From a candidate division SR1 bacterium CG_4_9_14_3_um_filter_40_9 (GTDB taxonomy: Bacteria > Patescibacteriota > Gracilibacteria > Absconditabacterales > Absconditicoccaceae), in contig PFWQ01000005.1 in NCBI GenBank assembly GCA_002791215.1, forward strand, positions 2,331 to 15,075: 12,745 nucleotides of DNA. The letters are read 5' to 3'. Positions 2,296 through 12,435 of this stretch are shown here, one piece after another (the first letter of the stretch is position 1; every line of letters starts with the position of its first letter). The position numbers and the translations under genes are program-made. The notes beneath the pieces were generated by a model. The model searched no databases, was not told where the DNA came from, and saw nothing but the letters and a program-made list of their open reading frames with translations.

Positions 2296-6099
<3,804 letters not shown>

Positions 6100-6205: not shown

Positions 6206-6206
<1 letters not shown>
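6172..6206. repeat. Second CTAG-type heptad array (5 units), abutting the rpoB stop
   Basis: Units TTACTAG, AAGCTAG, AAGCAAG, TAGCTAG and AAGCTAT, period 7. The array reaches into the rpoB stop codon and supplies a second in-frame stop (TAA then TAG). With the array at 6134 it makes up most of the 106-bp spacer. Confidence 0.8.
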
Positions 6207-9979
<3,773 letters not shown>

Positions 9980-10259: not shown

Positions 10260-10267
10260 CCCTATAT

Positions 10268-10309
10268 AATGTTAAATGTTAAATGTTAAGTGTTAAGTGC
10301 TAAATAAAA
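10268..10309. repeat. Heptad tandem repeat, AATGTTA type (6 units), in the rpmH leader
   Basis: Units AATGTTA three times, AGTGTTA, AGTGCTA and AATAAAA, period 7, ending 8 bp before the rpmH start. It is nearly the same array as the one before rpmA (2162-2196), in the same position relative to the start codon. Confidence 0.85.
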
Positions 10310-10352: not shown

Positions 10353-10919
10353 TTATTTTATGTATTCAAGCAGGCCGAGTTCTCTGGCTCTATGGATGCA
10401 TTCTTTCACTTTCTTCTGGGTCAAAACCGGATTCTTTGTATATTTCCTCGGCTTGATACTGCCAAATCTTGTCATGTATTTCTTCAAGATAGTAATCGCT
10501 TTCCAAGTAAGATATTTCTTGTTTTCTTTATTCATAAAGAAGCTGACTTTCTGACCTGTCTTTTTCTCTTCTGATTCTTCAAGGAATTTGCTGAGTTTGG
10601 TCTGTAATTCATCGAACATAAAAAATTCATCAGTACTGTTCATCTTGAAAATGAAATATCTCGCTATCGCCTTGTTGTAGAGCAATTGCTTTTTGATGAC
10701 ATCCAAATCTTTATTTTCCGCCTGGATATAATAAGAATGAATATAGAAGTTGTTGTGTCCTCTGACTCTGTGAAAATCGTACATCGTCTTTCTGAGTCCC
10801 ATGTCATCTTTCTTGAGAATGCAGTCTTTGATTTCGTTTTCCAATGAAGAAACAGTGTTTTGACGCTCTTTTTCCTGCAAAGACGCATCAAGCATTAATA
10901 CTAATTCATACTTTTGCAT
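10353..10919 (-). CDS. rpsF-rpsR: Fused small ribosomal subunit proteins bS6-bS18
   Basis: One 188-residue frame carries two ribosomal proteins that are normally separate. Residues 1 to about 97 are bS6: MQKYELVLMLDASLQEKE opening, RGHNNFYIHSYYIQ strand, and the YNKAIARYFIFKMN helix-strand that matches the family's N-[ED]-x-[VI]-[IL]-R. Residues about 98-134 are a charged linker (FLEESEEKKTGQK). Residues about 135-187 are the bS18 core: KYLTWKAITILKKYMTRFGS, then IKPRKYTKN and QKKVKECIHRARELGLLEYI, matching IDYKD...L..YI...GKI.PSR.TG...K.QR.L..AIKRAR.L.LLPY. In known ribosomes S6 and S18 bind each other on the 30S platform, so a tether is structurally sensible. Most bacteria have rpsF-ssb-rpsR; here ssb is missing between them. 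No UGA, stop or frameshift lies at the junction. tsf lies 74 bp upstream. Confidence 0.92.
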   Translation of the reverse strand: MQKYELVLMLDASLQEKERQNTVSSLENEIKDCILKKDDMGLRKTMYDFHRVRGHNNFYIHSYYIQAENKDLDVIKKQLLYNKAIARYFIFKMNSTDEFFMFDELQTKLSKFLEESEEKKTGQKVSFFMNKENKKYLTWKAITILKKYMTRFGSIKPRKYTKNPVLTQKKVKECIHRARELGLLEYIK

Positions 10920-10947
10920 AACGATAGATTGAATAGATTAAAATGGC

Positions 10948-10989
10948 TTCTAGCGACTAGCTTCTAGCTACTAGCTTCTAGCGACTAGT
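10948..10989. repeat. Heptad tandem repeat, CTAG type (6 units), tsf-rpsF spacer
   Basis: Units TTCTAGC and GACTAGC/TACTAGC/GACTAGT alternate, six abutting 7-bp copies making up 42 of the 74 bp between tsf and the S6-S18 gene. It is the same family as the arrays between rpoB and rpoC. The self-complementary CTAG cores allow many local hairpins in the transcript and give an in-frame TAG shortly after the tsf TAA. Confidence 0.9.
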
Positions 10990-10993
10990 AGCT

Positions 10994-11794
10994 TTAACGA
11001 ACAGATATTCTTGTGTATCCCTTCACCACCATATCGGCTGGGACAATCTCTTTTGTCTTTTTTGCCGCATCTCTGATATATTCTTGTTCCATCAATACTA
11101 ATTCAGCTAATGCTTTTCTCAATTTCCCTTCAAGAATCTGATCAATGATATTTTGTGGTTTGTTGCTTCCTTCCATCTCTTTGCGGAATTCTACCATAAG
11201 CGAATCACGATAGTCAGCAGGGACAGAATCAAAATCAAGATATGTCGGGCTCATAGCGGTAACCTGCAATGCTAATTCTTTTGCAATATATTCGTTTCCG
11301 CCTTCGTAATAAATCACGGAAGCGACTTTGTTCCCTGGATGATTATAGACATATGCATTTTCATTTTCTACGAGCACCTCAGTAAGCTTCATATTTTCTC
11401 AGATCTTACCTACAAATGCGGCTACCATCTCATTGAGTTCCGCCAGAAATTTTGCATCGACTTCTTCCAGTGATTTGGTAACTTTTTTGGATGCCAATAA
11501 TCTGTCAAGCAAATTGTTTGACAGTTTAATGAAATCCTCGTTTTTTGCAACGAAATCTGTTTCGCACAATAATTTAAGTCAAGCAAGTCGTCCATCTTTT
11601 TGTGCGACTTTCACTATTCCCTCATTTGTTGCTCTATCTGCTTTGTTTCATACTTTCATGATTCACTTTTTTTTCAGTATCTCCTCTGCTTTCTCAAGGT
11701 CTCCATTCGCCTCTACTAAGGCATCTTTACAGTCCTTCATAGGCGCGAATGTAGCATTTCTGAGCTGTTTCAAAAGATTTATATCTACGGACAT
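10994..11794 (-). CDS. tsf: Elongation factor Ts
   Basis: EF-Ts exchanges GDP for GTP on EF-Tu in the cytoplasm. The 266-residue product (UGA=Gly) opens with the UBA-like domain, [20 protein letters not shown] then [20 protein letters not shown], matching the family's L..LRE.TGA.MMDCKKAL.E..GD...A...LR.KG. The TDFVAKN signature follows in [14 protein letters not shown], and the core domain includes [10 protein letters not shown] near the usual H.A...P.YL position. UGA encodes the Gly after KKK, that of KVGNK, that in LAGLK and that in KIGEN, so a standard code would leave only the C-terminal 132 residues. TFAP replaces the more common TGAG/TGAP at the start of the EF-Tu-contacting region. The ATG at 11794 matches the family N-terminus. 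rpsB is normally adjacent but here is separated by a membrane protein gene. Confidence 0.95.
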
Positions 11795-11856: not shown

Positions 11857-12435
11857 CTAAGGGTTAGGATTTGATTGCTCGGCGCTCGGTACTTGAGACT
11901 CGGTACTTGGTACTTGAGACTCGGTACTGGTGATTTGATCGATGTTTGTCGTAGTTGCGACATTTTCCTGTATCGAAGTAGGAATAGCAACCGGTTCTTG
12001 AGGTTTCTCCGGTGATATGTCGAAGATATTCACGACCCATCCTCCCAATGCAGGGAAAAATCACCATGTATATCATTTCAATTCTGCACGATATTTCCCG
12101 CCCCATGCCTGTTTGACCAGGATGATGAAGAAAATGACCATGAAAAACAATGCTATAAGACCCAGATATTTGATGCCGGGCACCAACATCAATCCTACCG
12201 ATGCTACTAGCACAACAATAAAACATAGCCACCGTCACATAGATTGTTTGAGGTGAAAATATTCGAAGACATTCACTTTCTTACTGGAAAGTGTTATGAT
12301 TATCCCGAACAGCATATACATCATCACCGCCTTCTTTTTTTCTATGCTGCTAGGAACATATGCTCATCCCTGGTCAGTTTCAGTGGTGATGATCCTGTTT
12401 TCGATATTTTCTGGAGTTATGATGGTTTCAGACAT
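11857..12435 (-). CDS. Small membrane protein of unknown function between rpsB and tsf
   Basis: I do not recognise a characterised family. With UGA=Gly the frame gives 192 residues. A polar N-terminus (1-36, MSETIITPENIENRI) is followed by hydrophobic segments at about 37-50, 69-86 and 89-108 (LGLIALFFMVIFFIILVKQA), and possibly 125-138 (WGFFPALGGWVV). The cytosolic-looking linker FEYFHLKQSMGRWL resembles the RFHAKQ turn of small DUF4870/Tic20-like membrane proteins, but that is a weak likeness. The last 50 residues are a Pro/Ser/Thr/Gln-rich tail ending in two STESQVP repeats, which are encoded by the heptad DNA array at 11877-11932. The ATG at 12435 is 22 bp after the rpsB stop, so the two are probably co-transcribed. 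Glycines 23, 67, 121 region and 125 region include UGA codons. Confidence 0.75.
11877..11932. repeat. Heptad tandem repeat, TACTCGG type (8 units), within a coding 3' end
   Basis: Eight abutting 7-bp units (GCTCGGC, GCTCGGT, ACTTGAG, ACTCGGT, ACTTGGT, ACTTGAG, ACTCGGT, ACTGGTG). Three units make 21 bp, which read in frame gives the 7-residue repeat STESQVP at the C-terminus of the membrane protein. It is the same family as the array after rpoC (2257-2290), where it is non-coding. Confidence 0.88.

Follow-up and report, generated by a model that had tools for sequence, protein, structure and literature searches.

Bacterial ribosomal proteins are, to our knowledge, nearly always separate chains. 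The end of one of them, S18, is acetylated. In eukaryotic ubiquitin-ribosomal protein fusions, a ribosomal protein forms part of a longer chain from which the non-ribosomal partner is cut off. The closest bacterial system to the locus described here is the pair of separate rpsF and rpsR genes, with ssb or priB between them, which encode bS6 and bS18. According to two reports, S6 and S18 heterodimerise prior to binding the rRNA-S15 complex, and the S6:S18 heterodimer represses rpsF translation in E. coli, so that the heterodimer is the unit both in assembly and in feedback on the rpsF mRNA (PMC4647458; PMC10931766). The second report also describes the modification of E. coli bS6 by a glutamate ligase (PMC10931766). 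The bS6-bS18-bS21 pocket of the Bacteroidia platform, as presented in PMC9976891, lies at the same place on the 30S subunit as the partners considered here.

The locus analysed in this work is found in a stretch of 12,745 nucleotides (the window) from a candidate division SR1 bacterium, and encodes S6 and S18 in a single polypeptide. Both domains, their order and the operon neighbourhood are as in the separate system. In comparison with separate bS6 and bS18, the fusion is one chain, the linked ssb is gone, there is no free S6 C-terminus or S18 N-terminus, and no Rfam ribosomal-protein leader is matched in the window at E up to 1. The sole Rfam match was to a microRNA model (27.3 bits against a gathering score of 74) and was taken as chance. 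As in the ubiquitin fusions, a ribosomal protein sits within a longer chain; unlike them, each half is a ribosomal protein and the two are binding partners. With respect to the Bacteroidia pocket, bS21 was undetected in 35 of the 36 genomes of the window's family, the single match being in G015, an assembly of about 240 contigs, and no pocket of that type is therefore claimed. Since bS21 is undetected in fused and split genomes alike, its loss was rejected as the partner of the fusion, and its absence is treated as background and not as a cause.

The most likely reading is that the fusion serves the 30S platform as a covalent S6:S18 heterodimer. The fused rpsF-rpsR gene would alone supply the cell with bS6 and bS18; the S6 C-terminal helix would run via a short flexible joint into the S18 N-terminus; the heterodimer would be made pre-joined, rendering the first assembly step intramolecular and fixing the ratio at 1:1; and the pre-joined pair would enter the 30S platform as one unit. 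PMC12641178 puts the ribosome biogenesis factors of this phylum at about half the usual number, and a simplified assembly route would fit such a complement. We infer that the chain remains uncut in the ribosome, that docking of S6 and S18 follows the usual pattern, and that pre-assembly is the benefit. The initial annotation had likewise expected the fusion to impose a 1:1 ratio and pre-assembly, which would follow from the known biology of S6 and S18 (PMC4647458; PMC10931766), and had seen in it a possible fit with a streamlined genome. For the whole explanation, including a stepwise origin via loss of ssb and repeated fusion, we estimate a probability of about 0.82. The features that bear on it are the following.

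Positions 10356 to 10919, minus strand: rpsF-rpsR fusion gene, 188 codons, ATG at 10919, TAA stop at 10353-10355.
Positions 10644 to 10913, minus strand: bS6 domain, residues 3-92, Pfam Ribosomal_S6 match.
Positions 10572 to 10616, minus strand: predicted helix, residues 102-116, after the S6 domain in the first part of the linker (AlphaFold2 model); by eye it corresponds to the S6 C-terminus of unfused relatives.
Positions 10536 to 10565, minus strand: junction, residues 119-128, by eye like the N-terminus of the relatives' free S18.
Positions 10368 to 10523, minus strand: bS18 domain, residues 133-184, PF01084 match of 43.4 bits; residues 123-187 align with bS18 from solved ribosome structures.
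Positions 6206 to 9979, minus strand: rpoB, directly downstream of the fusion, whole only with TGA read as glycine (20 such steps).
Positions 10994 to 11794, minus strand: tsf (EF-Ts), upstream of the fusion, named by reading.

The fusion frame contains no TGA and is consequently open under both translation table 11 and table 25. Within it, the Pfam models for Ribosomal_S6 (profile positions 1-90 of 90; 31.3 bits, cut-off 27) and Ribosomal_S18 (profile positions 1-52 of 52; cut-off 21) both pass their thresholds over their full length. The HMM comparison proposed in the initial annotation thus confirmed its reading of S6 and S18 in one 188-codon polypeptide. The stricter NCBIfam equivalog models fall on the same stretches below their cut-offs, narrowly for S18 (TIGR00165, 37.5 bits against 38.75) and clearly for S6 (TIGR00166, 27.1 bits against 42.9). 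When the fusion protein was used as a single-sequence query against PDB chains, only S18 was matched (45 sequences); S6 chains were matched as well once a profile of 20 sequences was used, so the S6 half is divergent in sequence. Both halves are divergent yet complete. Sixty of the 120 PDB profile matches were examined, each named S6 or S18 alone; no fused chain, and hence no experimental precedent, is found among those 60.

The one-frame gene is conserved in nineteen more genomes of the window's family, their proteins being 32-54% identical to that of the window, and 55 of 65 relatives retrieved from 5.8 billion proteins carry both Pfam domains (one of the 65 being approximately the window's own protein). 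Because the both-domain gene is kept so widely, a chance origin of the frame is excluded by these comparisons. Most of the database relatives bear the name "candidate division SR1", "Candidatus Absconditabacteria" or "-bacterales", "Patescibacteria group" or "uncultured bacterium", with some "Candidatus Gracilibacteria" and "Candidatus Peribacteria".

That the fusion would be the only source of both proteins is consistent with the searches for other copies. The window's genome comprises 922,604 bases in 95 contigs and is 88.5% complete; in it, both domains lie in one frame, and the single S6 match and single S18 match are both in the fusion. No second rpsR or rpsF was found elsewhere in that genome at E up to 0.001; one extra S18 fragment is below the cut-off, at E 0.23. 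The S18 model finds one match over its cut-off in each of the 20 fused family genomes, at the fusion, and the whole fusion protein used as a query gives one match per genome in 20 of 20; S6 copy number by its own model refers to the window's genome. Ten further S18 matches at E up to 1, across 24 genomes, are all below the cut-off (E 0.02-0.34, over 17-35 positions of the profile); eight of these come from the 20 fused genomes and two from G024. The separate rpsR that, according to the initial annotation, would have refuted its reading was not found in these searches.

In addition to rpoB, rpoC is whole only when TGA is read as glycine (24 such steps), and the tsf, L27 and L32 genes in the window, named by reading, require the same code, which is named for SR1 and Gracilibacteria. 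In 33 of the 36 family genomes (the exceptions being G002, G016 and G021), rpoB shares a contig with the rpsF/rpsR locus and is separated from it by no more than about 0.6 kb. Since the matched stretch of 13 of the 20 fused genes contains a TGA codon, gene calling with the standard code would break those genes. An S6 or S18 reported as missing from a TGA=Gly genome can therefore reflect a translation-table error combined with a fusion. RpoB itself carries an N-terminal Lys/Ala-rich extension of about 80 residues (9730-9979, minus strand) that resembles a histone-H1-type tail; the alignments of some RpoB relatives begin at residues 1-20, those of others not before about residue 77-88.

Across the 36 family genomes, 20 from 11 genera carry the fused one-frame gene (G000, G001, G006, G012, G013, G014, G016, G018, G020-G023, G026, G027, G029-G033 and G035). 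Nine have adjacent, separate rpsF and rpsR with a stop between them (G005, G007-G011, G017, G025 and G034), five have the order rpsF-ssb-rpsR (G003, G004, G015, G019 and G028), one has a frame break and one is without the locus. The last of these, G002, has no rpsF/rpsR match, and its rpoB begins at a contig end. A stop or frameshift at the junction, a possibility raised in the initial annotation, occurs in none of the 20 fused genomes, and one further genome, G024, has a frame break there. This break (L056, minus strand, 4125-4152 in reversed coordinates) lies inside the fusion in a genome of about 220 contigs, and the genes of its genus-mates G014 and G033 are intact. Assuming that S18 starts at the Met beside the conserved start, the spacers of the nine adjacent pairs measure 25-66 bases; in four of the nine (G007, G017, G025 and G034, all one clade) the two genes are in the same frame.

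These intermediates bear on the strongest alternative, according to which the fusion is a neutral by-product of deletion-biased genome reduction, tolerated because the partners adjoin and bringing no gain in assembly or stoichiometry. The short spacers in nine genomes, including four in frame that represent one clade, speak for it, and the low number of biogenesis factors (PMC12641178) may mean that the constraint on assembly is itself altered. This reading is compatible with the same gene anatomy and history as the covalent heterodimer. Against it stands the fact that the very pair that binds before joining the ribosome has been fused repeatedly, in 11 genera here and in five of another family. 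We regard neutrality as a serious possibility that is nevertheless the less probable one, and continue with the covalent heterodimer as the preferred reading.

The order of events was examined through gene order and two trees. Of the 18 class-mates outside the family with S18 coordinates (out of 23), 11 have ssb no further than 1.2 kb from S18, and on this basis rpsF-ssb-rpsR is likely to be the ancestral order. In the RpoB tree (37 rows, 1,146 columns; G009, with adjacent genes and a very long branch, was left out), the lineages form a ladder in which those with ssb between the genes branch first, adjacent pairs next and fused genomes last, with 99/99 support for the main fused clade. In the SSB tree, built with a simple model from 40 rows of a short protein and including 15 fused genomes, the ssb genes linked to rpsF group in a single clade (98/93), which also takes in the linked copy of G037, a genome of another family. 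The ssb copies of the fused genomes in the tree fall outside this clade, which the program flags as a meeting of long branches, a kind of grouping that is often false. The rpsF-linked ssb is thus a paralog distinct from the unlinked ssb that fused genomes keep; the linked gene was therefore lost rather than moved, and before the fusion took place. The initial annotation had proposed "loss or relocation of ssb"; loss stands, with its timing before fusion and the paralogy of the linked gene added, and relocation falls. In the quick tree, G009, with its adjacent genes, sits at an unresolved fork among ssb-keeping lineages, so there may have been more than one loss of the linked ssb.

The proposed path would start from an ancestor with rpsF-ssb-rpsR and a second, unlinked ssb; deletion of the linked ssb would make rpsF and rpsR neighbours, and in a final step the loss of the S6 stop and the intergenic spacer would yield the fused frame. 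How often this last step occurred within the family depends on G027. In RpoB tree tests run with G002 and G024 counted as fused and with groups named after the quick tree had been seen, holding the main fused clade and G006 together was not rejected (p-AU 0.496), and holding all fused rows including G027 as one clade was (p-AU 0.00011). The positions between G027 and the main fused clade are taken by the split lineages G005 and G008/G010/G011, which calls for either two fusions or a single fusion followed by two re-splittings. The second option, a single family fusion later re-split in those two lineages, accounts for the position of fused G027 below them, and the counts cannot separate gain from loss. 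It nevertheless requires three changes instead of two, it sits poorly with the rejection of a single fused clade, and the G027 joint differs in sequence from that of the main clade. That joint is without the main clade's glycine and phenylalanines; the joint of G006 is also without the glycine. A database search with the G027 protein returned the query itself twice, plus 17 further proteins with 66-80% identity that carry both Pfam domains and form a set of their own; the other full-length matches are far lower, at 34-41%, apart from two short S6-only pieces at 69 and 79%. Re-splitting is accordingly considered unlikely, and the G027 lineage probably represents a further fusion origin within the window's family, in line with the repeated fusion of the preferred reading.

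A second family of the phylum (f26; L157, L158 and L159), from another class and using the standard code, has its own S6-S18 fusion, with 57.7-75.6 bits per domain and both domains over their cut-offs in the three genomes scanned. The fusion occurs without internal stop in five of its six genomes, from five genera, the sixth having no S18 match, and all 58 database relatives listed for it carry both Pfam domains. This is a separate origin in any case. The surveys covered this phylum, plus 14 control genomes for S18 presence. With the S18 model, 145 of 153 genomes gave a match over the cut-off, four of them in frames longer than 150 aa, namely that of G000 and three from the second family; two matches below the cut-off in long frames (G098 and G177) were set aside. 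The remaining eight genomes are without an S18 match, and some of these are 93-100% complete. A profile search (A3) of 314 genomes at E 1e-25 matched five second-family genomes and missed the window's own fusion, so it is uninformative about other kinds of fusion. In the 379-genome S18 survey, among the matches listed, only G065, of the second family, lies in a frame above 150 aa; since TGA breaks the frame-length count in TGA=Gly genomes, fusions in such genomes can be missed by these surveys. A broader proposal, that covalent pre-assembly of the 30S platform has arisen three or more times in Patescibacteria with few biogenesis factors and, in the window's family, no detectable bS21, S6 being repeatedly welded to S18 and surviving intermediates (rpsF-ssb-rpsR, adjacent pairs, and same-frame pairs parted by a stop) recording the steps, seems to us about evenly balanced between true and false.

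The joint between the halves can be compared with the ends of unfused relatives. The initial annotation had described a charged linker of about 35 residues. A linker of 38 residues (94-131) does exist, with six K/R and eight D/E, whereas its description as a separate spacer is not retained: by eye, it looks like mostly S6's own C-terminal extension and helix together with S18's own K-rich N-terminus, with no new spacer. Fused proteins measure 183-188 aa (20 aligned), against 186-210 aa for the sum of free S6 and free S18 in eight measured of 14 split relatives. What was lost on fusion, by eye, is the intergenic spacer and a portion of the S6 tail, which is acidic in five of the eight measured relatives. 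The mean share of the commonest residue is 0.59 in the joint (residues 118-131), 0.56 in the S6 domain and 0.75 in S18, so that conservation of the joint is close to that of S6 and lower than that of S18.

The AlphaFold2 model of the window protein has a pLDDT of 90.1 and a pTM of 0.85, and the model of the second-family fusion a pLDDT of 93.4 and a pTM of 0.87. These pTM values, an indirect measure of docking, suggest a fixed arrangement of S6 and S18. In fold searches, the modelled fold matches S6: the best 50 rows of each search cover the S6 half, and S6 of Porphyromonas gingivalis supplies the top two structural hits; for the S18 half, the matches come from sequence.

One feature of the model bears on whether the chain, once translated, is cut into free S6 and S18, as in the eukaryotic ubiquitin fusions. 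Residues 119-122 are the sole stretch of three or more with pLDDT under 50, and they lie beside G122, K124 and F127, each kept in at least 90% of the 20 fused proteins, a combination that would speak for cleavage. The joint of the second family, however, differs in sequence and is without any stretch under pLDDT 50, the joint glycine is missing from G027 and G006, and an unsystematic look at the joints revealed no common cleavage motif. Processing is for these reasons judged improbable, and the intact, pre-joined chain is preferred. Still less credence is given to free S18 being made in addition to the fusion from an internal start at the joint. The window does have an in-frame ATG at residue 129, and 14 of the 20 fused genes have an ATG, GTG or TTG within the scanned 40-codon stretch (joint and S18 N-terminus); the position is, however, unconserved, six of the 20 genes have no such codon there, and a Shine-Dalgarno-like word precedes one in only one of 20 genes, all by a crude scan. 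An assembly or binning artefact can be dismissed, even though many of the genomes are metagenome assemblies and G024 shows a frame break, since 20 genomes agree, the complete genome of SR1 bacterium RAAC1_SR1_1 (CP006913.1) also holds a match to the fusion, and both-domain relatives occur on many other public contigs.

The initial annotation knew of no described S6-S18 fusion, and none was found among the matches listed in the open-access literature, the scope of our search. In PMC1175954, the term "fusions" refers to concatenated alignments. JGI names some fusion proteins "ribosomal protein S18/ribosomal protein S6", so the composite is already visible to machines. The S6-S18 fusion offers a natural case for testing whether partner finding limits assembly, and whether the free ends of S6 and S18 matter. 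The intermediates kept by the window's family make the evolutionary path readable, and the repeated joining of S6 and S18 suggests that fusing neighbouring proteins is a way to simplify ribosome assembly.

Two further observations concern the surroundings of the gene. Imperfect short direct repeats flank it at 10265-10305 and 10945-10990, with GTTAAAT- and TAGCTTCTAGC-like units recognised by eye. Between rpsB and tsf, which are usually adjacent, the window contains a small hypothetical gene (11857-12435, minus strand), by reading apparently encoding a membrane protein.
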